Assembly: GCF_030143245.1 (NCBI RefSeq)
Contig: NZ_JARJNS010000004.1
Location: 186,001-250,000 of the forward strand
Direction: 5' to 3'
Origin: Rhabdaerophilum sp. SD176
GTDB taxonomy: Bacteria > Pseudomonadota > Alphaproteobacteria > Rhizobiales > Beijerinckiaceae
DNA: 64,000 nt
Each line of letters starts with the position of its first letter. Position 1 is the first letter of the stretch. Positions 42,366-61,385 of the stretch are shown here, piece by piece. The notes under the pieces were generated by a model. It was given only the letters and a program-made list of their open reading frames with translations. It was not told the origin of the DNA and made no database searches. A program made the position numbers and the translations under genes.

Positions 42366-44753
42366 TCAAGGGACCGGGTTGTCGATGAGCCCACGCTTCT
42401 GCAGCGCCCTGCGGATCAAACCGCGGAAGGGCTCGAACCGGAAGGTTACCTGGCGGGCGCCACGGGGCAGCACCACCGCCCGGAAAATGCCGTTGGCGCG
42501 CAGGATCTTGGCGGGCATGCCGTCCACTTCGGCGAACCACCAGGGATGCCAGACATCATTGAGCACCAGAACGCCGCCACGCGGGGCTTCCACGGCAACG
42601 TCGATCGCTGCATGGCCATACCGGGTGATGCTGGCAGTCCCGCCCGTTCCCCGCCGGGGCAGCGGCAGGGCCGAGTGTTCGACGTAGACAACGTTCCGGA
42701 AGTCGGTGGAAGGCCACTCGCCGGACCGGATCAACCGGTCCTGGTCGATCGGTTGCGCCTCCGGCACAATCATCACGCGGGGCAGCGTTTCCGGATTCTC
42801 GTAGATATAGCCATCCTTCGTCCGCGCAACCGGGCTCGGAGGCGCCTGGGCCAGCGAGGGATCGATCTTCTCGATCGGGACACTGGTCACGATCCAGCGC
42901 AGCCCGAGCAGATTGCTGATGGGTGCGCGGTATCCCGGCATCAGGGCCGAGAAACGGCGCTGGTCCCAGCCGGCCACATGGTCGCGGGCACCGGTGGCCT
43001 GCGCATAATGGGCCACCCGGAGCGGGTTATAGCCAAGCACATGTTCGATACCGTGGATCAGGCCGATATTGGGCCATTCGAAGCCCAGCCCGGCCAGTTC
43101 CACCCGATCGCGCCGCTCGCCATCGCGCACGATATTCGCCTTCAGCCAGGCCAGGGTCTCGTTGTCGCTGTCCGGCCGCACGGCGCTGTAGACTGCAGGC
43201 TCCAGGCCTGTGGAATCATTGGGTCGGAGATTCCAGCGGAGATCGGCTGTGACAGCGAGGGCCAACAGGCCAGCCACGAGCATCGGCCGCGCCCGCGCCT
43301 GATGCCGGGCGAGGGCGAGGATGCTCGCTGCCGCCACCAGCCAGCCGGAGGCCACAAGGAGCTCGGGCACAGCCTGCCCGAGCTTCCCCAGCCAGAAGGC
43401 CATGGCCAGCCCGCCCGTCAGCGCCAGCCCGGCCAAGCCGATCCAGAGGCACACCACGCCCGTTGGAAGCGGACCCGGTCCACTCTTGAGCACGCGGTCA
43501 AGGCCGAACCCCGCCAGGAGGGCGCCGACAGCCCCGACCAGGAACAGCGAATCGGCCGGTCGTCGGAAGAGATCGACCCCGGGCAGCAGATGATAGGCCA
43601 TCGAATAGACCGGCGTATGGCGCCCCAGCGCATAGGCGATCATCAGGCCGAAAAGGATCGGCAGGGCGATCATCCGCGCGCGGTAGGCTTCCCGGCAGGC
43701 CATCCATGCGAGGATGCCGGCCAAAGGCAGCAGGCCCATATAGACATTGGCCATGTTCCTGGCCACGTTGGACATGACGATGAAGGGCCAGTGGACGCTG
43801 GGTGCGCCCCAGAACTCCTCGGCCGGCCCGATCGTTCCGAACAGGTTGGCGACCACCAAGGTCAACAGGTTGGTGGGATGCAGCGAGCCGATATAGGCCT
43901 GTTCGAGCGCGATCTGGGCCCGGTTCGAGCTGTCGGCAAAGCCAAGCACCATCAACAGGGGAAGGGTGATGAGCACGCCACCCGTCGCCGCGCCGGCAGC
44001 CAGGGGCCGCAGGCTGGCCCTGAGGCGCGGCAGCCGGCCGGGGCCGGCCACGAGATGCGCAAGGACGATGCCTGCAAGGCAGACGAGGCCGAGATAGGCC
44101 ACCTGGTCCGGTCCGAGCACCATCAGCCCGGCAAAGAGCCCGGCCAGGGCGCCGAACCGTGCCGAGGACAGCCGCAGCGCCCGGTCGAGCATCCAGAAGG
44201 CCCAGGGGAAATAGGCGAGGCTGAGCACCTGTCCGATATGCTGGATCCGCCAGCCTGCGCTGCCACCGAAGGCGAAGGCAAGCGCCGCGACCACAGCCGC
44301 CGCCGGGTGCCAGCGCCGGTCCCGCGCGAAGCCGAGAATGGCCAGCGCGCCGAAGACCAGTGACCCGAGCGCCACGCCATCGACCATGGCGAAACTGGGA
44401 TCGGGCGTCAGGAAGGCCAGCAGCAGGAAGCCGGGATTGAAGATCAGCGATTGCGGATCGGCGATCTGCGGATGGCCGGAGAACACGTAGGGCGCCCAGA
44501 ACGGGCTCTCGCCGGAATGGATCGAGCGGGCAAGAAACGCAGCCTGGGCCTGGAAATGCGCCTTGCCATCCCAGGGCAGGGTGACCGCCCCGGACAGCCA
44601 CGGCCAGGCGAGAAACAGGGCCGAGGCGAGCACGAGGGCCAGTGCCACCAGCCATTCCCGACCGCGCGTCTGGAGCATGGGCTGATGGCTTGCAGGGCTG
44701 ATGTCCCGCAGGCCGGGTTCAGCCCGCATTCGGCGCTGAAGGCGCTGGAGCAT
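42366..44753 (-). CDS. large polytopic membrane protein, YfhO/glycosyltransferase-like
   Basis: 795 aa. About 12 membrane segments in residues 30-520 start LVALALVLASALFLAWPW; the first loop has WDGKAHFQAQAAFLA and SGHPQIADPQSL near residue 93, the acidic/His pattern of GT-C-like YfhO-family proteins. A soluble C-terminal domain (about 540-795) ends with a beta-sandwich-like part. Such proteins transfer sugars from lipid carriers to cell-surface polymers. Start could also be at the internal ATG of residue 26. Target unknown. Confidence 0.78.
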   Translation of the reverse strand: MLQRLQRRMRAEPGLRDISPASHQPMLQTRGREWLVALALVLASALFLAWPWLSGAVTLPWDGKAHFQAQAAFLARSIHSGESPFWAPYVFSGHPQIADPQSLIFNPGFLLLAFLTPDPSFAMVDGVALGSLVFGALAILGFARDRRWHPAAAVVAALAFAFGGSAGWRIQHIGQVLSLAYFPWAFWMLDRALRLSSARFGALAGLFAGLMVLGPDQVAYLGLVCLAGIVLAHLVAGPGRLPRLRASLRPLAAGAATGGVLITLPLLMVLGFADSSNRAQIALEQAYIGSLHPTNLLTLVVANLFGTIGPAEEFWGAPSVHWPFIVMSNVARNMANVYMGLLPLAGILAWMACREAYRARMIALPILFGLMIAYALGRHTPVYSMAYHLLPGVDLFRRPADSLFLVGAVGALLAGFGLDRVLKSGPGPLPTGVVCLWIGLAGLALTGGLAMAFWLGKLGQAVPELLVASGWLVAAASILALARHQARARPMLVAGLLALAVTADLRWNLRPNDSTGLEPAVYSAVRPDSDNETLAWLKANIVRDGERRDRVELAGLGFEWPNIGLIHGIEHVLGYNPLRVAHYAQATGARDHVAGWDQRRFSALMPGYRAPISNLLGLRWIVTSVPIEKIDPSLAQAPPSPVARTKDGYIYENPETLPRVMIVPEAQPIDQDRLIRSGEWPSTDFRNVVYVEHSALPLPRRGTGGTASITRYGHAAIDVAVEAPRGGVLVLNDVWHPWWFAEVDGMPAKILRANGIFRAVVLPRGARQVTFRFEPFRGLIRRALQKRGLIDNPVP

Positions 44754-44785
44754 GGTCGCCTCCCGGGGGCGACTAGCCGGAAAGG

Positions 44786-45907
44786 CTAGCCGTTGACCGG
44801 AGCATGGGCGACCATCGCATCGAAATCGATGAAATGGCCCGCCCGGTCGCGCTTGGAGGCGAGATAGCGGATGTTTTCCGCCGTCGGCCGGCCATAGGCG
44901 CGGTTATCCGCCACAACCTCAAGGCCTGCGGCCTTCAGCGCGCCGATCTTTTCGGGATTGTTGGTCATCACGCGGACCGAGGTGACGCCGAGCTGCTTCA
45001 GCATCACCGCTGCGAAATCGAAGCGGCGCTGGTCGAGGCCGAAGCCGAGAACCTCGTCCGCATCGTAGGTATCCCAGCCCTGGCTCTGCAGCTTGTAGGC
45101 GCGCATCTTGTTGGCGATGCCGTTCCCGCGGCCTTCCTGGTCGAGATAGAGCAGGATCCCGCCATCGCTCTCCGCCATTTTCTGGACGGTCCCGCGAAGC
45201 TGGTCGCCGCAATCGCATTTCAGCGAGCCGAAGAGATCGCCCGTCAGGCAGGCCGAATGCATGCGGATGGCCACCGGCTTCGACAGGTCGGGCTTGCCGA
45301 CGATGATCGCCACCTGGTCGCGCAGGCCTTCGCCGCCGCGGAACACCACAAACTCCGTTTCCGCTGCGAATTCGAGCGGCACCGGCGCCCGGCCGACGAT
45401 TTTCGTCGCCCGGACCTGGCTGGCGCGGTACTCCCGCAATTCGGCCGCGGTGACGCGGGCAACGCCGCCATTCACCGCCTCGATGGCCATCGGAACCGCG
45501 TAGACGGCCGGCGTGACAAGAGCGAGGCGCGCCAGTTCGAGGGCAGCCTCGTCCAGCGCGACCACCGGCGCCACGGGCGCATCGATGCGGCCGTCGATCT
45601 TGAGCGCCAGCATCTCCGCCCGTTCCGCGTTGGGAACCGGGAAGGAGACGACACCCGGCTGGGTGCGCTCGAGCCCGAGGCGGCGCAGGCGCGCTGCCGG
45701 CAGGACGAGGCGCGGGCGGCCCGGTGCCAGCCGGTCGAGCGCGACGGCCACGGCCGCCTCGAGCGATTCCACATTCAGCGCGAGCAGCGCTTCGCCGCCC
45801 TCGATGATCGCAACCGGCCGGCCTGCGCGGTACTCCGCGAGGGCACGATCGACGGCCCGCTCTCCGGCGGTGTCGAAAAGGCCGAGAATTTCACTGACGT
45901 CACCCAT
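44786..45907 (-). CDS. ribA: GTP cyclohydrolase II with degenerate N-terminal domain
   Basis: 373 aa. The C-terminal half (about 175-365) is GTP cyclohydrolase II: zinc cysteines in CLTGDLFGSLKCDCGDQLR, then YLDQEGRGNGIANK, DQRRFDF and MTNNPEKIGAL. The N-terminal ~165 residues resemble a DHBP-synthase domain in layout but lack its acidic motif, so that activity is unlikely. The enzyme opens GTP to the diaminopyrimidine used for riboflavin. It is not in the main rib operon and is divergent from a second RibD-type reductase, so it may serve riboflavin, a side pathway, or both. Confidence 0.88.
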   Translation of the reverse strand: MGDVSEILGLFDTAGERAVDRALAEYRAGRPVAIIEGGEALLALNVESLEAAVAVALDRLAPGRPRLVLPAARLRRLGLERTQPGVVSFPVPNAERAEMLALKIDGRIDAPVAPVVALDEAALELARLALVTPAVYAVPMAIEAVNGGVARVTAAELREYRASQVRATKIVGRAPVPLEFAAETEFVVFRGGEGLRDQVAIIVGKPDLSKPVAIRMHSACLTGDLFGSLKCDCGDQLRGTVQKMAESDGGILLYLDQEGRGNGIANKMRAYKLQSQGWDTYDADEVLGFGLDQRRFDFAAVMLKQLGVTSVRVMTNNPEKIGALKAAGLEVVADNRAYGRPTAENIRYLASKRDRAGHFIDFDAMVAHAPVNG

Positions 45908-46085
45908 TTACGCCTCTTTCGTCCATGTTTACGGTCATTTCGGCTGGGTTATTCCGCCGGATGGACACCGTATCGTTAAGGTCCATATCTCTATGGGGCT
46001 CGCAAGATGAACGGCTGATGTCTGATTTCATTCCGCTCCGTTCAGGCGTGAAACCCGCTCATGCCGTCGCCCTGCAAGGACTCCG
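45908..46085. promoter_or_regulatory. divergent intergenic region between ribA and the RibD-like gene
   Basis: 178 bp without a gene; two opposing promoters must lie here. TATCGTTAAGGTCC around 45970 is AT-richer than its surroundings. No FMN riboswitch fold was recognised. Confidence 0.35.
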
Positions 46086-46808
46086 ATGCCCCCCGAATCC
46101 GCGACCCTTTTCCAGGCTTTCCGGCGTGTTTCTGCCGAAAGGCCTTTCATCGTGGCCCAGTTGGGCCAATCGCTTGATGGCAGGATCGCCACCCGGACGG
46201 GCGACAGCCGGTACATAGGGTCGGCCCCTTCGCTTGACCACCTGCACCGCATCCGTGCCCATGTCGATGCCGTCATTGTGGGAATCGGTACCGTGCTGGC
46301 GGATGACCCGCAGCTCAATGTGCGCCGTTGCGAAGGGCCGAATCCGGCCCGCATCGTGATCGATGCCCGCGGAAAGCTGCCCGCTGCGGCCAAATGCCTC
46401 GCCGGGCACGACAATGTCCGGCGGATCGTCTTCCGTGATGCCGGCGCCCGGGGCGAGCCGCTGCCGGGCGAGGTCGAGATCATCCGGCTCGCCACCGATG
46501 CGCGCGGCCATTTCCGCATGCCGGACCTTGCGCGCGCGCTGGCCGATCTCGGTTTCGACAAGGTGCTGATCGAGGGCGGGGCGGGCATCATCTCGCGCGC
46601 CATTGATGCCCGGATTGTCGATCGCCTTCATCTCATGGTCTCCGCGATCATCCTCGGTTCAGGGCAGGCCGGCCTCGAACTCGCGCCGATCGACCGGATC
46701 AGCCAGGCGATCCGCCCTCATGTCGAGGTGGTTTCGCTCGGCGCTGGCGATGTGCTATTCGATTGCGACTTGACACGCGCATCACATTCCGGAGAGCGGC
46801 ATGAGTAA
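46086..46808 (+). CDS. stand-alone RibD-type reductase
   Basis: 240 aa. Only the reductase (RibD C-terminal, DHFR-like) domain is present: VAQLGQSLDGRIAT near residue 24, VDAVIVGIGTVLADDPQLNV near residue 61, ARIVIDARGKLP near residue 88, and VLIEGGAGIISRA near residue 161. There is no deaminase domain. It should reduce a ribosyl or related pyrimidine with NADPH. Main riboflavin synthesis already has RibD at 29064, so this second copy hints at another pathway. Overlaps the cytochrome b561 gene by 8 bp. Confidence 0.88.
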   Translation: MPPESATLFQAFRRVSAERPFIVAQLGQSLDGRIATRTGDSRYIGSAPSLDHLHRIRAHVDAVIVGIGTVLADDPQLNVRRCEGPNPARIVIDARGKLPAAAKCLAGHDNVRRIVFRDAGARGEPLPGEVEIIRLATDARGHFRMPDLARALADLGFDKVLIEGGAGIISRAIDARIVDRLHLMVSAIILGSGQAGLELAPIDRISQAIRPHVEVVSLGAGDVLFDCDLTRASHSGERHE

Positions 46809-47352
46809 GGCATCCTCGCGGCCCATCAGCTATTCCGGCGGGCAGAAGCTGCTCCACTGGGTCATCGCCCTCATGCTGCTGACCTTGATCCCGGTCGGGA
46901 TCTACATGGTGCAACGCGGCGCGGCGACCAATTTCGACGCCGTGACCAACCAGCTCTACACGGCGCACAAGACATTCGGCTTCCTCGCCCTGCTGCTGAT
47001 CGTGCTCCGGATCGCGGTGCGGATCCGCAAGGGCGCGCCGGCGCCGGAGCCCGGTCTGGCGCGGATTCAGGTCATCGCGGCGGAATCAACGCATGGCCTG
47101 CTCTACCTGCTGATGGTCCTGGTCCCGGTTCTCGGCTGGCTCGGCGTTTCGGCCTATGGCGCGACAGGGCTGCTCGGTGGCTTCTCCCTGCCGTCTCTGC
47201 TGGGCAAGGACACGGTACTCGGCGAGACCATCCTGAAATATCACGGCTATGCCGCGATCGCGATGGCCGGGTTCATCGCGATGCATGTCGGTGCGGCCCT
47301 GTTCCACCGCCTCGTGCTGAAGGACGGTGTCCTTCGGCGCATGCTGCCCTGA
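46801..47352 (+). CDS. cytochrome b561
   Basis: 183 aa with four membrane helices. Heme-ligand candidates are His in KLLHWVIAL near residue 19, YTAHKTFGF near residue 56, and the two in YHGYAAIAMAGFIAMHVGAA near residues 148-164. Such proteins move electrons between quinone and a periplasmic or cytosolic partner. It overlaps the RibD-like gene by 8 bp, suggesting a linked redox role. Confidence 0.92.
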   Translation: MSKASSRPISYSGGQKLLHWVIALMLLTLIPVGIYMVQRGAATNFDAVTNQLYTAHKTFGFLALLLIVLRIAVRIRKGAPAPEPGLARIQVIAAESTHGLLYLLMVLVPVLGWLGVSAYGATGLLGGFSLPSLLGKDTVLGETILKYHGYAAIAMAGFIAMHVGAALFHRLVLKDGVLRRMLP

Positions 47353-47383
47353 GGGCAGCCGCGCCTCCGGCAACGCGGATGCC

Positions 47384-48241
47384 TCAGGCTGGAAGCGTCG
47401 CGAAAATGTCGGTATGCCCGGTCATCATGCGGCTGCCTTTCTGGTCGCACATGGCGTCGCGGTAGAACAGCCAGTCGGCTAGGCCCTTGTCGACGATGAA
47501 ACCGGTTTCCTCGACCGCCTTGGCAATCCCCTTCAGAAGTTCCCGGACAAGCTCCGCATCTGAAGGCTTCAGGATCCACGGAGAATCGCCCGTATCGACC
47601 GCATAGCCCTCGTGCCGCAGGGCCGCGACGAGTGCAGCCGCGGCCTCTGGCCCGGCGGCAGGCCCGAAGCCCTTGTCGCGGCGCTGGTGCATGGCAAAGG
47701 CGCGTGTCACCCCGAAATCGAACGGATGCTCGGGGATGAACTGGTCCTGGCCGTTATAGGTCAGCACCGTATAGAAAGCCGAGCCCGCCGCCTTGAGGGC
47801 CGAGGCGAAGCGCTTCATCCACGCCTCGGAGATCAGGTCGAACAGCGCCGAGGCCGTCACGAGATCCGGCTTGCCGGCCAGCACCGTATCCAGATCGCGG
47901 TTGAGATCGACAACGCGGAACTTCACGCCGATCGTCGCCTCTCCCTTGACGAGAACGAGATCATCGCCGATGGCGCGCGCCTCGTCGGCCCAGCCGGACA
48001 GCACTTTCGCGGCGGTCTCGAGCAGCCCGGCATCGTAATCGACCAGGGTCCATTCCTGCCGGTTGCCGAGCAGCGGCGCGGTGGCGCGCAGGTTAGAGCC
48101 CGTGCCGGAGCCGAGATCGACGATGCGCGTCACATCCTGCCCGGCGAACCGGGTTCCGACCCGGCCGGCGAGCTCGGCATTGCGCGAACGATGGTCGGCC
48201 GGCTCGCGCAGGGCAAGCCAGTCAGCGGAGAAGCCGCTCAT
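47384..48241 (-). CDS. class I SAM-dependent methyltransferase
   Basis: 285 aa. Motif I VDLGSGTGSNLRATA lies near residue 42 and the acidic end of strand 2 is in WTLVDYDAGLL. C-terminal residues ending MMTGHTDIFATLPA have no recognised extra domain. The start at 48241 overlaps the glycosyltransferase stop (ATGA), so it is the last gene of a four-gene minus-strand operon. Substrate unknown; a small glycoside of a pterin-like compound is a hypothesis from context. Confidence 0.85.
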   Translation of the reverse strand: MSGFSADWLALREPADHRSRNAELAGRVGTRFAGQDVTRIVDLGSGTGSNLRATAPLLGNRQEWTLVDYDAGLLETAAKVLSGWADEARAIGDDLVLVKGEATIGVKFRVVDLNRDLDTVLAGKPDLVTASALFDLISEAWMKRFASALKAAGSAFYTVLTYNGQDQFIPEHPFDFGVTRAFAMHQRRDKGFGPAAGPEAAAALVAALRHEGYAVDTGDSPWILKPSDAELVRELLKGIAKAVEETGFIVDKGLADWLFYRDAMCDQKGSRMMTGHTDIFATLPA

Positions 48242-49302
48242 GCGGAAACCTTTCTGGACGTGAGGAAGGGGGCAACCGCCCCGGCAATGATGCGGGCCGT
48301 ATCCGCCCAATCGGGGAGTAACTGCCCGGCGCGATAGGCCTCGTCGGCCAGCCGCGCCCGCAGGGCAGGGTCGGCCATGGCCTGTTCGAGCGCGCCCTGC
48401 AGGGCCCCGGCATCACCCGGAGGCACCTTGAGGCCGGCACCCTCGGGCACGGTATCGCTGGCCGCGCCGCCGGTGGTGGTGACAATAGGCAGTCCGCGCT
48501 GCATCGCCTCGCCGAGCACCATGCCATAGCCCTCGAAGAGCGAGGACATCACAAAGAGATCCGCCTTCTCGTAGAGCGTATCGAGATCGCGTTCGCGGAC
48601 TGCGCCGAGCAGCTGGATCCGGTCAGCGAGGCCCGCCTGGCTGATCTGCTGCTGAAGCGCGTTGACGGTGTCGAGCGCATGGGCAGCTCCGACAATGCGC
48701 AGGTGCCAGCCCCGTTTCTTCAGCCCGGACAGCGCCTCGACCAGCACGGCATAGCCCTTGCGGGGCACGATCGAGCCCACCGCAAGGAGGTTCAGCGCCG
48801 CGTCGCCCGAGCCGGTCGCGCGCGGCTTTCGCGCCGTGCCGGGCATGGCGACCGTCATCTTGCCGGCGGGCACGGCGAAATCCCCCTCGAGGATTTTCGC
48901 CGTCAGCGGCGAGGTCACGACCACATGATCCGCCAGGCTCAGCGCCGTTGCTTCCGAGGCGTGGAGCGCCTGGGCGCGCGCTGCGGAAATGCCGTTTTCC
49001 AGCGCCAGTGGGTGATGGCACAGGGCGATGATCGGCCGGTTGAACGCGCGGATCAGCCCGGCCGGCATCGCGCCATAGGCCAGACCGTCGATCAGCAGCG
49101 GGCAACCGGGCGGCAGCCCCTGCACGATGGCCGCGCAATCGGCGAGATCCGCCTCGGTGGCCATCGGGAATGAACCGGGCAGGGCGACATGCATCGCCTG
49201 CACGCCGTGTTCGGGCAGCAGCCGGATGACCGCGCGGTCATAGCCATAACCGCCCGTGGGCAGGTTCAGGTCGCCGGGGATCAGGAAGGCGATGTCACTC
49301 AT
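48238..49302 (-). CDS. glycosyltransferase family 4 protein
   Basis: 354 aa GT-B fold enzyme. The N-terminal domain opens IAFLIPGDLNLPTGGYGYDRAV; the C-terminal domain has VGSIVPRKGYAVLVEAL near residue 193 and the donor-site Glu in SSLFEGYGMVLGEAMQRGLPIV near residue 255. It should transfer a sugar from a nucleotide donor. Its position between a methyltransferase (4-bp overlap) and the PTPS-like gene (10-bp gap) suggests a small-molecule acceptor rather than a polysaccharide. Confidence 0.9.
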   Translation of the reverse strand: MSDIAFLIPGDLNLPTGGYGYDRAVIRLLPEHGVQAMHVALPGSFPMATEADLADCAAIVQGLPPGCPLLIDGLAYGAMPAGLIRAFNRPIIALCHHPLALENGISAARAQALHASEATALSLADHVVVTSPLTAKILEGDFAVPAGKMTVAMPGTARKPRATGSGDAALNLLAVGSIVPRKGYAVLVEALSGLKKRGWHLRIVGAAHALDTVNALQQQISQAGLADRIQLLGAVRERDLDTLYEKADLFVMSSLFEGYGMVLGEAMQRGLPIVTTTGGAASDTVPEGAGLKVPPGDAGALQGALEQAMADPALRARLADEAYRAGQLLPDWADTARIIAGAVAPFLTSRKVSA

Positions 49303-49312
49303 TGGCCGGGCA

Positions 49313-49714
49313 TCAGGTCAGCGGACCCTCGAACCAGGCGCGCGCGAGATCGGTCTCGTGCAGGGTGACGCGGATCTTCGTCAGGCCCTTGCCATCCTCG
49401 CCCAGCGCGCCGGATTTCGCGGCCTTGGCCATCTCGCCGAAAATATGATGGGCGAGGAATTCCGTCGTCGTCAGCACACCCTTGAACTGCGGCAGCGTAT
49501 CGAGATTCTGGTATTTCAGCGGCTTCAGAACCGCCGCCAGCGTATCGAGCGCCGCGCCGATATCAACGACGACATTCTGTTTCGTCATCGTCTCGCGGAA
49601 AAAGGCGACATCCACAACGAAGGTCGCGCCGTGCATGTTCTGGGCAGGCCCGAAGAACGGGTCAGGCAGCGAATGGCCGATCATGATGCGATCGCGGACT
49701 TCAACGGCAAACAT
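49313..49714 (-). CDS. 6-pyruvoyltetrahydropterin synthase/QueD-like protein with altered active site
   Basis: 133 aa T-fold protein. Family marks are His14 (MIGHSLPD), His28 (QNMHGATF), LTTTEFLAHH and the C-terminal HETDLARAWFEGP. Two usual features are missing: the HGH zinc motif is HGA at 28-30, and there is no Cys anywhere in the protein, so the catalytic Cys of QueD/PTPS is absent. It is therefore neither an ordinary QueD nor PTPS. Ten bases separate it from each neighbour in the operon. Confidence 0.85.
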   Translation of the reverse strand: MFAVEVRDRIMIGHSLPDPFFGPAQNMHGATFVVDVAFFRETMTKQNVVVDIGAALDTLAAVLKPLKYQNLDTLPQFKGVLTTTEFLAHHIFGEMAKAAKSGALGEDGKGLTKIRVTLHETDLARAWFEGPLT

Positions 49715-49724
49715 CGGTCTTTCC

Positions 49725-50702
49725 TCAATAACGGATCAGCGTGGCAAGCCCCGGGGCATCCGCCGCCAGCAGGCGGGGAATGGCCGGAGCCAGGTCGGGG
49801 AAGGGGAGGGTTTCGGTAATCAACGCATCCAGCCTGTCATCGGCCAATAAGCGCAGGGCCGCCTGAAGGCGCGATGAATAGGTCCAGCCACGCGCGGCAT
49901 GCCCGGGCGAGACCGTGCCGACCTGCGACGAGACGAGGCTCACGCGCCCGGCATGGAACAGGCCGCCCAGCGGCGCCTGGACCGGCTTCGCCCCGTACCA
50001 GGACAGCTCGATCACCCGCGCCTCGGGCCCTGCCGCGCCGATGGCCGTGGCAAGCCCGGCCGCGCTGGCGCTCGTATGGAACACGATATCGGCCCCCTTG
50101 GGCGCATGGTCCGGCATCGCGAAATGCGCGCCGAGATGGCCGGCAATGTCGGCCCGCAGCGGGTTGAGATCGACCAGAGTCACCTCGGTGCCGGGCATCC
50201 GCGCGGCAAGGGCGGTCACGAGCAGGCCGACCAGCCCGCCGCCTACCACCACGACGCGGTCCGCCGCCGAAACGCCGGAATCCCAGATTGCGTTCAGCGC
50301 GGTTTCCATGTTTGCGGCCAAAGCCGCCCGGTGCGAAGGCAGGAAATCCGGCACGGGGTTCAGCCACGAGGCGGCGCAGACGAAACGATCCTGATGCGGA
50401 TGCAGCACGAAGACCCGCTTGCCGATCCATTCCGCCGGCCCATCTTCCACCACGCCGATGGCGCAATAGCCGTATTTCACGGGGAAGGGAAAATCGCCCT
50501 CCTGCAGCGGGCAGCGCATGCGGGCCTGCTCTTCCGGCGGCACGAGGCCGGAGGCGACCAGCCGTTCCGTCCCGCGGGACAGGGCGGTGAATTCCGTCCG
50601 CACCAGCGCCTCGCCGGGCTGCAGTGCCGGCAAGGGCAGGATGCGGCGCTCGGCCGTCATCGGCGCGGTGTAGAAGAGGGCGGAGGAAGATGGCCGGGAC
50701 AT
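49725..50702 (-). CDS. medium-chain dehydrogenase, BchC-like, lacking zinc ligands
   Basis: 325 aa. The glycine-rich loop VVVGGGLVGLLVTALA near residue 153 and the Asp in TLVDLNPLRA bind NAD(P). The usual GHE and Cys zinc motifs are replaced (YGYCAIGVVEDG), as in BchC-type and other non-zinc MDR enzymes. TALSRGTERLVASG near residue 38 matches this subgroup. First gene of the PTPS-like, glycosyltransferase and methyltransferase operon. The start at 50702 is a choice; 50735 is open. Confidence 0.82.
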   Translation of the reverse strand: MSRPSSSALFYTAPMTAERRILPLPALQPGEALVRTEFTALSRGTERLVASGLVPPEEQARMRCPLQEGDFPFPVKYGYCAIGVVEDGPAEWIGKRVFVLHPHQDRFVCAASWLNPVPDFLPSHRAALAANMETALNAIWDSGVSAADRVVVVGGGLVGLLVTALAARMPGTEVTLVDLNPLRADIAGHLGAHFAMPDHAPKGADIVFHTSASAAGLATAIGAAGPEARVIELSWYGAKPVQAPLGGLFHAGRVSLVSSQVGTVSPGHAARGWTYSSRLQAALRLLADDRLDALITETLPFPDLAPAIPRLLAADAPGLATLIRY

Positions 50703-50843
50703 GAGAGTTCTGGTTTGCTTTCGTTCAGCTTCCATCCGCGATATCGCACGGACAGACAGTCCGACCGAGCCATTTCATGCAAAGGTGCATGTGGCAAGGC
50801 CGGATGCGAAAGAGCAGACGTAACGCGAAAGGCCTCGCTGACC

Positions 50844-52634
50844 ATGCCCCCGGAGACGAATGCGCCCCGCATCGCCATCCCCCTCACGCCGACCGGCACC
50901 CAGAGCGCGGAGGCTTTGACCTATCGCCGCGTGATTGTCGGCGGCCTGAATGTCGCGCTTTATGTCGCGCTGCTCTATTGGGCCGGCTCGATCCTCGGCG
51001 CCGGCGGCTGGAGCGTCGTCGATATCCTGCTCTTCATCTGCATGGTCTTCGGGACGCCCTGGGCGGTGCTCGGCTTCTGGAATGCCGTGCTCGGCCTCTG
51101 GCTGCTTCATGGCCGACGTGATCCCATGCGCGAAGTGGCCCCCTTCGCCGATCTGCCCGATCCGGAGATGCCGGTCACCCTGAAGACCGCGATTTTCATG
51201 ACCCTCCGCAACGAGGACCCCGCCCGCGCCCTGCACCGGATGAAGCTGATCAAGGCCGAACTCGATGCCACCCCGGCGGCGGATCGATTCGCCTATTTCC
51301 TCCTCTCCGACACCAACCGCGAGGATGTCGCCGCCGAGGAAGAGGCCGGGTTTGCCCGTTGGAAGGAAGAGGCAGGGCCGGACGCCCCGATCACCTATCG
51401 CCGCCGGCAGGAGAATACCGGCTTCAAGGCCGGCAATGTCCGCGATTTCCTCGAGACATGGGGCGCGGATTTCGACCTGATGCTGCCGCTCGATGCCGAC
51501 AGCCTGATGGATGCGCGCACCATTCTGCATCATGTCCGGATCATGCAGGCCAACCCCAAGCTCGGCATCCTGCAGAGCCTCGTCGTCGGCATGCCGTCGA
51601 AATCGGCCTTCGCCCGCATCTTCCAGTTCGGGATGCGTCAGGGCATGCGCGCCTATACGATGGGACAGGCCTGGTGGGTGGGCGAATGCGGCCCGTTCTG
51701 GGGCCATAACGCACTGGCCCGCATCGCCCCCTTCCGAGACGAATGCCACCTGCCCGTGCTGCTGGGCAAGCCGCCCTTCGGCGGGCATATCCTCAGCCAT
51801 GACCAGGTGGAAGCCACGCTGATGCGCCGTGCCGGCTACGAGGTCCGGGTCATGCCGGAAGAGGGCGGTTCCTGGGAGGAAAACCCGCCGACCCTGCTCG
51901 AATTCATGAAGCGCAATACCCGCTGGTGCCAGGGCAACCTGCAGTACTTCAAGCTCCTCGACCTGCCGGGCCTCTATGCCGTCAGCCGCTTCCAGCTGAT
52001 CTGGGCCATCCTGATGTTCCTCGGCATTCCCGCCTGGACGCTGATGCTGCCGCTGGCCGCGCTGAAGCCCTTCGATGGCGAGAGCCTCGCGCTGTTCCCC
52101 GTCGCCTCGGCGCTGACGCTCTATATCCTGTTCACGGTCATGAACCTGATGCCGAAAATCGCCGGGCTGATCGACATCATGCTCACTCCGGGCGGTACGG
52201 CGCGCTATGGCGGCACCGGCAAATTCCTCTTCGCCGGCATCACCGAGATCCTTTTCGCCTGGGTCCTCGGCGCTGCGGACACGTTCAAGACCACGATCTT
52301 CATTCTCGGCCTGCTGATCGGCAAATCGGTTACCTGGGGTGGTCAGGCGCGCGATGCCCATGGCGTGCCGTGGGATATCGCGGCCTCCAACCTCTGGCCG
52401 CAGACGCTGTTCGGCTTCGTGGTGGTCGGGCTCATGGCTGTCACCTCGATCGAATTCGCGCTCTGGTCGCTGCCGCTGACCTTCGGCTTCCTCGTGGCCA
52501 TTCCCTTCGCGGTCTGGAGCGCCGATCCCGGACTTGGCGAGACCCTGACCCGCAAGGGCCTCTATGCCATTCCCGAGGAAATCGAGAAGCCCGAAATCGT
52601 CCTGAAGGCCCAGAGCCAGGGGAGCGCCGCGTGA
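50844..52634 (+). CDS. opgH: glucan biosynthesis glucosyltransferase OpgH (MdoH)
   Basis: 596 aa, shorter than the enterobacterial enzyme. Membrane helices flank a cytosolic GT2 domain (about 95-350) with DADSLM near residue 221, ECGPFWGHNALARI near residue 281, HDQVEATLMRRAG and RNTRWCQGN. It polymerises UDP-glucose to beta-1,2 glucan and exports it to the periplasm. The partner opgG is not in the window. The next gene starts within its stop (GTGA), so it is coupled to an FkbM methyltransferase. Confidence 0.92.
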   Translation: MPPETNAPRIAIPLTPTGTQSAEALTYRRVIVGGLNVALYVALLYWAGSILGAGGWSVVDILLFICMVFGTPWAVLGFWNAVLGLWLLHGRRDPMREVAPFADLPDPEMPVTLKTAIFMTLRNEDPARALHRMKLIKAELDATPAADRFAYFLLSDTNREDVAAEEEAGFARWKEEAGPDAPITYRRRQENTGFKAGNVRDFLETWGADFDLMLPLDADSLMDARTILHHVRIMQANPKLGILQSLVVGMPSKSAFARIFQFGMRQGMRAYTMGQAWWVGECGPFWGHNALARIAPFRDECHLPVLLGKPPFGGHILSHDQVEATLMRRAGYEVRVMPEEGGSWEENPPTLLEFMKRNTRWCQGNLQYFKLLDLPGLYAVSRFQLIWAILMFLGIPAWTLMLPLAALKPFDGESLALFPVASALTLYILFTVMNLMPKIAGLIDIMLTPGGTARYGGTGKFLFAGITEILFAWVLGAADTFKTTIFILGLLIGKSVTWGGQARDAHGVPWDIAASNLWPQTLFGFVVVGLMAVTSIEFALWSLPLTFGFLVAIPFAVWSADPGLGETLTRKGLYAIPEEIEKPEIVLKAQSQGSAA

Positions 52635-53401
52635 GCCTGCCTCCGGAACAGATTTCCGCCCTTTCCACACGCTGGCCGGGCCTCCGCCGCTCCTTCGAGG
52701 TCTATTACGGTGACGCCCCGCGCGACGCGGCGATGGACGCGCTCTATGCCCGCTTCGTGAAGCCGGGCGGCCTTGCCTTCGATATCGGCAGCCATGTGGG
52801 CGACAGGATCGGCGCCTTCCGCCGCGTCGGCGCCCGTGTCGTCGCGCTCGAACCGCAGCCGGATTGCGCGGCGGCCATCCGCGAGATCTATCGCGCGGAC
52901 GAAGGGGTTGCCCTTGTCGAGGCGGCCTGCGGGCCTGAGCCCGGCCGGCTGACCCTGCATGTCAATTCCGCCAACCCCACCGTCACCACGGCCTCGACGG
53001 ATTTCGTGAAGGCGGCTGATGGCGCCGAGGGCTGGGAGGGGCAGGTCTGGGACCGCGCCATCGAGGTCCCGGTGACGACGCTCGACAACCTGATCGCGGC
53101 GCATGGCATGCCGGATTTCGTGAAAATCGATGTCGAGGGCTTCGAAGCCGATGTCCTTTCGGGGTTGACCCACCCCGTCCGGGCCCTGTCGTTCGAATTC
53201 ACGACGATCCAGCGCGATATTGCCGGCAAGTGCATTGCGCTTCTGGCCGCGCTCCGGCCCTACCGCTTCAACATCGCGCTCGGCGAGAGCCAGCAGCTTC
53301 ATTTCGACGAGCCCATTTCCGCCGGCGACATGGCTGCCCATATCCTGTCCTTGCCGCATGCGGCCAATTCGGGGGATGTCTATGCGACATTTCGTGGCTG
53401 A
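52631..53401 (+). CDS. FkbM family methyltransferase
   Basis: 256 aa with GTG start overlapping the opgH stop. SAM motif I is FDIGSHVGDRIGAFRR near residue 45, ALEPQPDCAAAI follows, and FVKIDVEGFEADVLSGL near residue 160 is the FkbM signature. These enzymes O-methylate sugars or small molecules. Coupling to opgH suggests the glucan or a precursor as target, an inference. The next gene begins inside its end. Confidence 0.9.
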   Translation: MSLPPEQISALSTRWPGLRRSFEVYYGDAPRDAAMDALYARFVKPGGLAFDIGSHVGDRIGAFRRVGARVVALEPQPDCAAAIREIYRADEGVALVEAACGPEPGRLTLHVNSANPTVTTASTDFVKAADGAEGWEGQVWDRAIEVPVTTLDNLIAAHGMPDFVKIDVEGFEADVLSGLTHPVRALSFEFTTIQRDIAGKCIALLAALRPYRFNIALGESQQLHFDEPISAGDMAAHILSLPHAANSGDVYATFRG

Positions 53402-54398
53402 ACCCGGGCGCCTGCTGCCGGCCCTGCTGCTGACCCTGGGGGTTTTCATGTGCTCGTCCGAAATCAGTCAGGCCCAGAATGCCGGGGCGCCCGACCAGAC
53501 CGTCCTCGGCGCCCATAACAAGAAGCCACCGAGCCTGACGGTGAAGGTCGAGAACCATTCCGAGCCGGAAGTCTGCGCCGAGAAGGACAATATCGACATC
53601 CGGTTCATCAATCCGGAGGTTCGCAGCTTCCGCGTGCAGGCCGTCCACCCGGCCTATATCGCCACGCTGAAAGAAGATCTCGCCCTGCCGGATTTCACCG
53701 ATTGCGACATGTCCGGTGATCCCGTCTTCAACCCCGGCCAGCCGCGGCAGGTCACGCTCTACGAAACGCCGTGGATCTCGATTGTCGGGCAGGTCTATCC
53801 GAGCTTCTGGCGGCCGGCTGACGTGCCGGTGCGCGTGGGCGACCGCGTTGAGAACGGCCTCCACCTCATCCAGGTCTACCAGCGCATCGGCCAGCGCATG
53901 GAAGAGATGCTGGTCGTCTATCCGCCGGACGGCTACTGGCGTGCCCGGCCCCTGCCGCCGGCCCATATGGGCTGGACCGCCTATGGCTCCAGCTTCATGA
54001 TCGGGCCGGTGACGATGGAGGGCCGCCCGGTCGTGGCGCTGAAGGAGATCCGCTTCGATCCCGAGACCATGACCTTCCATTTCCCCTTCCGCGATGGCGG
54101 CGAGGGCAGCCTGAAGCTCGACAAGCTCGACAAGGATCATATCAGCCTCGAGGTCCGGCTCTCCGGCAACCTGCCGAAGGACAAGCCCTTCGCGGCCCTC
54201 CGCTCGATGTATGTGACCGACATCAACAATGATGTCTCGCGCGTCGCCTTCCGTCAGGCCGGCAAGACCCGCTGGGGCGAGGAGCATGTGCTCGACTACA
54301 AGGGCGGTGAGGCGAACGAGTTCTGGGCCGGCCGTTACTGGCCGTCGCGGCACAACATGTCTTCTCCGGACATGACCTTCTCGCGCTTCGGGAAATAG
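53382..54398 (+). CDS. exported protein of unknown function
   Basis: 338 aa. A signal peptide (GRLLPALLLTLGVFMC, then ISQAQ) precedes a soluble mature protein rich in beta-strand-like segments with WISIVGQVYPSFWRPADV near residue 127. No known enzyme motif is seen. Two Cys after the signal (EVCAEKD and TDCDMSG) could form a disulfide. It overlaps the FkbM gene by 20 bp and has GGGGGA in front of its ATG, so the three genes opgH-fkbM-this are one operon. Perhaps periplasmic and involved with the glucan; no direct evidence. Confidence 0.8.
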   Translation: MRHFVAEPGRLLPALLLTLGVFMCSSEISQAQNAGAPDQTVLGAHNKKPPSLTVKVENHSEPEVCAEKDNIDIRFINPEVRSFRVQAVHPAYIATLKEDLALPDFTDCDMSGDPVFNPGQPRQVTLYETPWISIVGQVYPSFWRPADVPVRVGDRVENGLHLIQVYQRIGQRMEEMLVVYPPDGYWRARPLPPAHMGWTAYGSSFMIGPVTMEGRPVVALKEIRFDPETMTFHFPFRDGGEGSLKLDKLDKDHISLEVRLSGNLPKDKPFAALRSMYVTDINNDVSRVAFRQAGKTRWGEEHVLDYKGGEANEFWAGRYWPSRHNMSSPDMTFSRFGK

Positions 54399-61307: not shown

Positions 61308-61385
61308 TGGTCGGAGTGGCGGGATTCGAACCCACGACCCCTAGTCCCCCAGACTAGTGCGCTAACCAGGCTGCGCTACACTCCG
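61308..61385 (-). tRNA. tRNA-Pro (GGG)
   Basis: A full cloverleaf on the minus strand: acceptor CGGAGTG/CACTCCG, D-stem GCGC/GCGC, anticodon stem CTAGT/ACTAG with loop CTGGGGG (anticodon GGG), T-arm GTGGG-TTCGAAT-CCCGC. The CCA end is encoded. It reads proline codons CCC and CCU. Confidence 0.96.

Follow-up and report, generated by a model that had tools for sequence, protein, structure and literature searches.

What is made by a gene cluster in which a GTP (guanosine triphosphate) cyclohydrolase II, a stand-alone RibD-type reductase and a homologue of 6-pyruvoyltetrahydropterin synthase (PTPS) stand beside a glycosyltransferase and a methyltransferase? The question is raised by a 64,000-nucleotide stretch of Rhabdaerophilum sp. 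SD176 (contig NZ_JARJNS010000004.1, positions 186,001 to 250,000; this whole stretch is called the window below), for which an initial annotation had proposed a route from GTP to a methylated, glycosylated pterin-like compound. Our answer, to which we give a probability of roughly 0.55, is that most genes of an undescribed pathway lie at this locus, and that its product is a pterin-like (2-amino-4-oxo-pyrimidine) compound which is methylated, glycosylated and completed at the membrane.

The core of the cluster is a minus-strand operon which starts with an MDR-type dehydrogenase carrying the motif SRGTE (49725..50735, with an internal ATG at 50702 as a possible start) and continues with the PTPS-like T-fold protein of the SCO6650/3d7j type (49313..49714), a family 4 glycosyltransferase (GT4, 48238..49302) and a class I S-adenosylmethionine methyltransferase (47384..48241). 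Gaps of 10 base pairs (bp) separate the PTPS-like gene from its neighbours on both sides, and the methyltransferase gene, with its ATG at 48241, overlaps the GT4 gene by 4 bp. Facing this operon on the plus strand are the genes for the reductase (46086..46808) and a cytochrome b561 (46801..47352), which overlap by 8 bp, and beyond both lies the cyclohydrolase gene (44786..45907), again on the minus strand. Gene and domain analysis confirmed the genes, their coordinates and their spacing as initially annotated. The riboflavin genes had been placed 15 kilobases (kb) away, and this also stands, as riboflavin synthase, whose start we take from its MFTG motif to be at about 30195, is some 15 kb from the cluster.

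Co-occurrence of the cluster genes, and their conservation in two phyla, strongly support the view that they act together as a functional unit. Five proteins were searched in 150 genomes of the window's order. The PTPS-like gene was found in 39 of them (E ≤ 1e-6), spread over 25 of 89 genera, and the dehydrogenase (E ≤ 1e-40) in exactly the same 39, neither gene occurring alone in any of the 150. The reductase, present in 44 genomes at E ≤ 1e-20 and in 32 at E ≤ 1e-40, is carried at the stricter cut-off by 31 of the 39 PTPS-positive genomes versus one of the 111 others, and this single PTPS-negative carrier (G123) is a 56% complete genome. For the cyclohydrolase (24 genomes at E ≤ 1e-60) the figures are 21/39 versus 3/111, the three belonging to one genus. 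An OpgH/MdoH-like membrane glycosyltransferase, encoded next to the operon and described below, occurs in 61 genomes at E ≤ 1e-80, 34 of them above a clear gap, with 32/39 versus 2/111 carriers in these 34. The cut-offs giving 32 reductase and 34 OpgH-like carriers were set post hoc in gaps of the E-values (1.0e-43/2.1e-25 and 6.9e-146/1.0e-95, respectively). Fisher values for these associations range from 4e-12 to 6e-37, with shared ancestry ignored. As only 4 of the 27 genomes that have just ordinary OpgH paralogues (E 1e-96 to 1e-80) are PTPS-positive, the co-occurrence is specific to the cluster's own OpgH-like type.

The association does not depend on physical linkage, since eight genomes (G065, G142, G100, G070, G106, G019, G132 and G101) have the reductase and/or cyclohydrolase at a long distance from the core or on a different long contig. 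The eight unlinked stretches (L137, L138 and L140-L145) carry cytochrome b561 in seven cases and a YfhO-like gene in four. G137 was discarded as a further case of this kind, as its contig with the reductase ends in GT4 and methyltransferase genes (L139) and thus reflects a contig break.

Gene neighbourhoods were compared in 80 named loci, the best 80 of at least 585 matches, which were picked with the patterns FGPAQx(L/M/K)HG and EVRD(H/R)IMI and therefore favour close relatives and these motifs. The methyltransferase is present in 76 of them, GT4 in 72, the dehydrogenase in 71 and the OpgH-like gene in 52, followed by the reductase (45), cytochrome b561 (42), an FkbM-type methyltransferase (35) and the cyclohydrolase (33); some loci lie on short contigs, so absences are overcounted. 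The co-occurrence that the initial annotation had expected is thus largely borne out, for the PTPS-like, dehydrogenase and reductase genes across the 150 genomes and for GT4 and the methyltransferase by neighbourhood only.

The PTPS-like protein belongs to the T-fold family PF01242 (72.5 bits, cut-off 22.4) and scores below the QueD equivalog cut-off (30.2 versus 89.25 bits). It shares its fold with QueD and 6-pyruvoyltetrahydropterin synthase (COG0720; PTPS-I, II and III) but has no catalytic cysteine, HGA in place of HGH and an altered Asp-His pair. The initial annotation had called it cysteine-free, and it has indeed none at all. We aligned 120 PTPS-like sequences, the 80 named loci included and some genomes represented twice. 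In this alignment, which is weak where the family is set against true PTPS and QueD structures, the position of the catalytic Cys of 1b66 is Ala in 119 sequences and Gly in one, the zinc motif reads HGA in 120 of 120 (also in 30 rows not found by pattern), and in the Asp-His pair three sequences retain the Asp, while the His is replaced by Tyr in 109 and by Met, Phe or Leu in 11. H14, S15, Q25, H28, G29, A30, D51, D72, E85 and E120 are invariant in all 120, which suggests that the protein has an active site of its own and is not a dead enzyme. E120 we take, from its position by eye, to be the glutamate that anchors the pterin in PTPS and QueD.

The window's protein is 92% identical to one from Rhabdaerophilum calidifontis. 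Among solved structures it comes closest to SCO6650 of Streptomyces coelicolor (PDB 3d7j; E 3.6e-54 over 131 profile positions), a member of the same subfamily with the same HGA and NY changes that was entered in the PDB as an uncharacterized protein. For SCO6650, zinc, the catalytic triad and PTPS activity are reportedly all absent. A review gives CxxxHGH, CxxxxxHGH and ExxHGH as PTPS subfamily motifs and calls the function of PTPS-V unclear (PMC5041015); none of these three motifs is present in the window's PTPS-like protein. Neither a pathway for SCO6650 nor a description of the cluster was found among the matches listed in searches of the PMC literature, subscription journals being mostly outside its coverage; the product of the undescribed pathway would be a pterin or diaminopyrimidine.

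The cyclohydrolase matches Pfam GTP_cyclohydro2 at residues 171-333 only, and nothing from Pfam matches upstream. The annotation had read this N-terminus as degenerate; although it indeed lacks a Pfam match, the protein passes the NCBIfam equivalog PRK08815 over residues 13-369 (498.1 bits, cut-off 464), so the unusual N-terminus is normal for this subfamily. Its zinc cysteines C220, C231 and C233 and the active-site Y271, as aligned to 2bz0, are kept in at least 95% of 45 length-filtered sequences. In the reductase, a Pfam scan found the RibD_C domain and no deaminase domain. Its best solved relatives are 6p8c, named 2,5-diamino-6-ribosylaminopyrimidinone phosphate reductase, and 2azn, named phosphoribosylaminouracil reductase, the latter an archaeal enzyme that acts on the 2,5-diamino compound.

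For the remaining core proteins the hints are more general. The dehydrogenase had been called BchC-like, of which a distant resemblance is left, its score against the BchC equivalog TIGR01202 being far below the cut-off (38.8 versus 291.25 bits); among its weak matches to solved structures are polyol dehydrogenases (best E 1.7e-5). The nearest solved relative of the GT4 enzyme is Tll1590, followed by MshA-like and PimB-like enzymes. The predicted model of the methyltransferase (predicted local distance difference test, pLDDT, 97.1) shows a confident class I fold; its alignment comprises 27 of 93 loci and the window's own sequence, over-long frames being excluded. Cytochrome b561 has conserved histidines at H19, H56, H98, H148, H162 and H169. 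Rank correlations of pairwise distances, run without a control, are 0.56-0.68 among the core proteins and 0.14 for cytochrome b561 and the OpgH-like protein, and they are given no weight here.

From these families a glycosylated and methylated pterin is a plausible product, and the following route can be proposed. GTP cyclohydrolase II, with its conserved residues, would open GTP to 2,5-diamino-6-ribosylaminopyrimidinone 5'-phosphate, and in some relatives a neighbouring creatininase-type protein may take off the formyl group. The stand-alone reductase, judged by its family, would then turn the ribosyl into a ribityl chain with no prior deamination, so that the 2-amino group would stay as it does in the archaeal and fungal riboflavin route. 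Next, the dehydrogenase may oxidise a hydroxyl group, and the PTPS-like protein could hold the aminopyrimidine via its conserved glutamate and catalyse a step at the ring or side chain. GT4 would add a sugar and the methyltransferase a methyl group. Finally, to go by the recurrent neighbours, membrane proteins would attach or export the product, here the OpgH-like protein and elsewhere a CDP-alcohol phosphatidyltransferase together with a flippase-like protein. The membrane genes suggest a final location of the product within the membrane or outside it, and the presence of cytochrome b561 suggests weakly that it is redox active.

These membrane genes had been missed so far: the boundaries drawn by the initial annotation, which had taken the core, reductase and cyclohydrolase as one unit, are too narrow, and the membrane genes belong alongside. 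In the window, the OpgH/MdoH-like gene (50844..52634, plus strand) is divergent from the dehydrogenase-led operon. Its product passes the models PRK05454.2-1 (504.4 versus 419) and PRK05454.2-5 (480.9 versus 328) and narrowly misses the best-scoring one, PRK05454.2-6 (864.6 versus 884 bits). We pooled 109 loci (the 80 named ones, 11 from outside the class, 9 more from genomes and 9 from plasmids, Thiodictyon excluded) and counted an OpgH-like match as strong at 400 bits or more. Two architectures emerge, with 51 loci having the OpgH-like gene without a CDP-alcohol phosphatidyltransferase and 26 the reverse, while one has both and 31 neither; the CDP-alcohol type here includes four of the 11 loci from outside the class in which this gene stands next to a weaker OpgH-like match. 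This second type tends to carry a flippase-like protein (PF03706), FkbM and a sulfatase-superfamily protein; for the relatives' sulfatase-like and CDP-alcohol phosphatidyltransferase proteins we found no close solved structure. Near the CDP-alcohol phosphatidyltransferase gene there is also a gene family, seen at L181:12044-12805 and with relatives in L130, L179, L182 and L183, whose scanned member is YceI-like, and YceI is often paired with cytochrome b561.

Ordinary synthesis of osmoregulated periplasmic glucans by the OpgH-like gene is disfavoured, as no OpgG (MdoG, PF04349) was found in the window's genome; among 14 control genomes the same search matched E. coli only. However, an OpgG-like gene family adjoins six clusters outside the class and its one scanned member is a clear MdoG/OpgG, which argues for some link to glucans. 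One may go further and imagine a widespread membrane-anchored glycoconjugate of a methylated pterin (or ribityl-aminopyrimidine). It would be made via GTP cyclohydrolase II instead of I, shaped by a PTPS-like enzyme that lacks the usual zinc site, joined to either a phospholipid (CDP-alcohol type) or a glucan (OpgH type) and then exported, and it would pass electrons to and from the quinone pool via cytochrome b561. In this complete form the idea is speculative and we regard it as doubtful.

Several observations weigh against the proposed pathway, the first group of them at its later steps. The order of the steps from the dehydrogenase onwards is guesswork, and the methyltransferase model matched generic class I methyltransferases only, without a specific hint. 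None of the four CDP-alcohol phosphatidyltransferases of the genome resembles the cluster type. In G076 and G111, which belong to one genus, the OpgH-like gene is retained without the core and can therefore work alone; in G111 a dehydrogenase fragment runs into an overlapping reductase fragment beside this gene (L149:10824-11483), which looks like the deletion scar of a cluster. Moreover, the model of a probably secreted protein encoded nearby (pLDDT 77.0) had no PDB match at E ≤ 0.001. One could ask whether the core decorates a glucan or glycolipid, with the PTPS-like protein binding a nucleotide or another ring and no pterin being made, as the recurrent OpgH-like, FkbM, CDP-alcohol phosphatidyltransferase, flippase-like and sulfatase-superfamily neighbours and the OpgG-like genes at six clusters would allow. 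We consider this unlikely, because reductase and cyclohydrolase co-occur with the core even when unlinked and because the PTPS-like proteins keep E120, if this is the pterin anchor.

The second group concerns the early steps and riboflavin. At the thresholds used, reductase and cyclohydrolase are both missing from four of the 39 PTPS-positive genomes (G024, G058, G095 and G146), in which riboflavin biosynthesis, with its intermediates of the same type, may supply the substrate. An archaeal-type reductase and a bacterial RibD are not told apart by family models, both scores being below cut-off (TIGR01508, DARPP, ArfC/RIB7, 101.7 versus 186.45 bits; TIGR00326, bacterial RibD, 103.0 versus 156.35). 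The creatininase-type protein of a Streptomyces locus (L112) reaches 37 bits with the ArfB model (cut-off 180) and fits best to mycofactocin MftE (141 versus 172). A separate GTP cyclohydrolase I is encoded elsewhere in the genome. The cyclohydrolase domain of the genome's RibBA is degenerate, its zinc cysteines and QEGR motif being gone (L129, G000:C18:448982-449425), so that of the genome's two PF00925 matches only the cluster cyclohydrolase is intact and could also feed riboflavin. From its sequence, riboflavin in this genome probably starts from an enzyme other than this RibBA domain. Cyclohydrolase and reductase might then serve riboflavin, as back-up or sole GTP cyclohydrolase II, with only the dehydrogenase-PTPS-GT4-methyltransferase core being separate and nearby by chance; that 18 of the 39 PTPS-positive genomes have no cyclohydrolase at E ≤ 1e-60 would fit as well.

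This explanation appears improbable to us. At this threshold 126 of the 150 genomes lack the cyclohydrolase, 21 of its 24 carriers are PTPS-positive, the reductase has no deaminase domain, and both genes also adjoin the core in genomes from outside the class and in Actinomycetota. The genome also encodes elsewhere two creatininase-family proteins, one of them possibly a BrbF-type formamidase; in PMC9478397, rhizobial BrbF appears in a riboflavin context. No flavin mononucleotide (FMN) riboswitch from Rfam was found in the window at the gathering threshold, nor at E ≤ 0.1 over 44700-52800, which weighs little because the riboflavin synthase gene of the window has none either. Since most genomes do without the cyclohydrolase and its presence tracks the PTPS-like gene, a cluster route separate from riboflavin, as the initial annotation had it, is likely, if short of proof in view of the degenerate RibBA.

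We found the operon again in other Alphaproteobacteria, in genomes from outside this class, in a named gammaproteobacterium and in Actinomycetota. Among 398 genomes of the phylum the PTPS-like gene is present in 27, of which 11 are outside the class, and in all 11 it is adjoined by dehydrogenase, GT4 and methyltransferase genes; the same loci contain CDP-alcohol phosphatidyltransferase (11), flippase-like (10), reductase (10), creatininase-type (5) and cyclohydrolase (4) genes and no cytochrome b561. Inherited synteny without any functional link, to which the long synteny around the cluster in many loci might point, is very improbable in the face of this recurrence in Actinomycetota and a gammaproteobacterium, the unlinked co-occurrence and the patchy yet identical distribution of the two core genes.

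Known systems resemble the proposed pathway in part. In the archaeal and fungal riboflavin route the genes for GTP cyclohydrolase, ArfB formamidase and ArfC reductase have a counterpart in seven cluster loci (L107, L125, L130, L178, L183, L184 and L187), where cyclohydrolase, creatininase-type and reductase genes are likewise together; the L187 creatininase-type protein passes the Creatininase Pfam model (208.2 versus 31.3 bits). Unlike in that route, they are here accompanied by a glycosyltransferase, a PTPS-like protein and usually a methyltransferase, and the scanned creatininase-type protein stays below the ArfB cut-off. The cyanobacterial cyanopterin and the tepidopterin and limipterin of Chlorobium are pterin glycosides, cyanopterin being also methylated, but they start from GTP cyclohydrolase I, whereas the cluster has GTP cyclohydrolase II and a ribityl-forming type of reductase. 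The toxoflavin pathway does start from GTP cyclohydrolase II and a RibD-type enzyme, and we know of no PTPS-like protein, GT4 or membrane genes in it. If our reading is correct, bacteria in two or more phyla have in common a route that turns GTP into a pterin-like compound other than folate, biopterin, queuosine or riboflavin, the PTPS homologue SCO6650 would gain a role, and the annotation '6-carboxytetrahydropterin synthase' would be a misnomer in such clusters. The link to membrane glucan or lipid genes would in this case suggest a surface or membrane-bound molecule that is redox active or absorbs light.

Further genes surround the cluster. Downstream of the OpgH-like gene, the plus strand encodes the FkbM-type methyltransferase (52631..53401) and the probably secreted protein (53382..54398), which has a signal-like N-terminus by eye and an uncertain start, its frame having been analysed from 53298. 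The latter has no Pfam or NCBIfam match; a relative is near the cluster in 25 of the 80 named loci, and 19 of these and the window's own sequence were aligned, over-long frames being excluded. On the other side, a large membrane protein (42366..44753, minus strand) has a marginal YfhO resemblance (14.8 bits versus a cut-off of 28.5), and such a YfhO-like protein is encoded near the cyclohydrolase gene in 14 of the 80 loci. An IRES_Bip match below the Rfam gathering score was taken as chance, and a tRNA gene (61311-61385, minus strand) is the sole Rfam match in the window at the gathering threshold.

We also examined 12 of 20 plasmid matches and found the operon, whole or in part, in 10 of them: on two Streptomyces plasmids and on plasmids of Microbacterium, Arthrobacter, Thiodictyon, Agrobacterium, Methylosinus (M. 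trichosporium OB3b), Palleronia, a Rhodobacteraceae strain and Peteryoungia. Two Streptomyces plasmids (L117 and L124) carry a lone PTPS-like gene in a different context, with genes for a MEKHLA-domain protein, a cupin and a metallo-β-lactamase-fold hydrolase nearby. Within the window's own order, two loci, L130 (G037) and L131 (G038), have a Streptomyces-like layout with CDP-alcohol phosphatidyltransferase and flippase-like genes, L130 also with a creatininase-type gene, and perhaps this layout was acquired by horizontal transfer.

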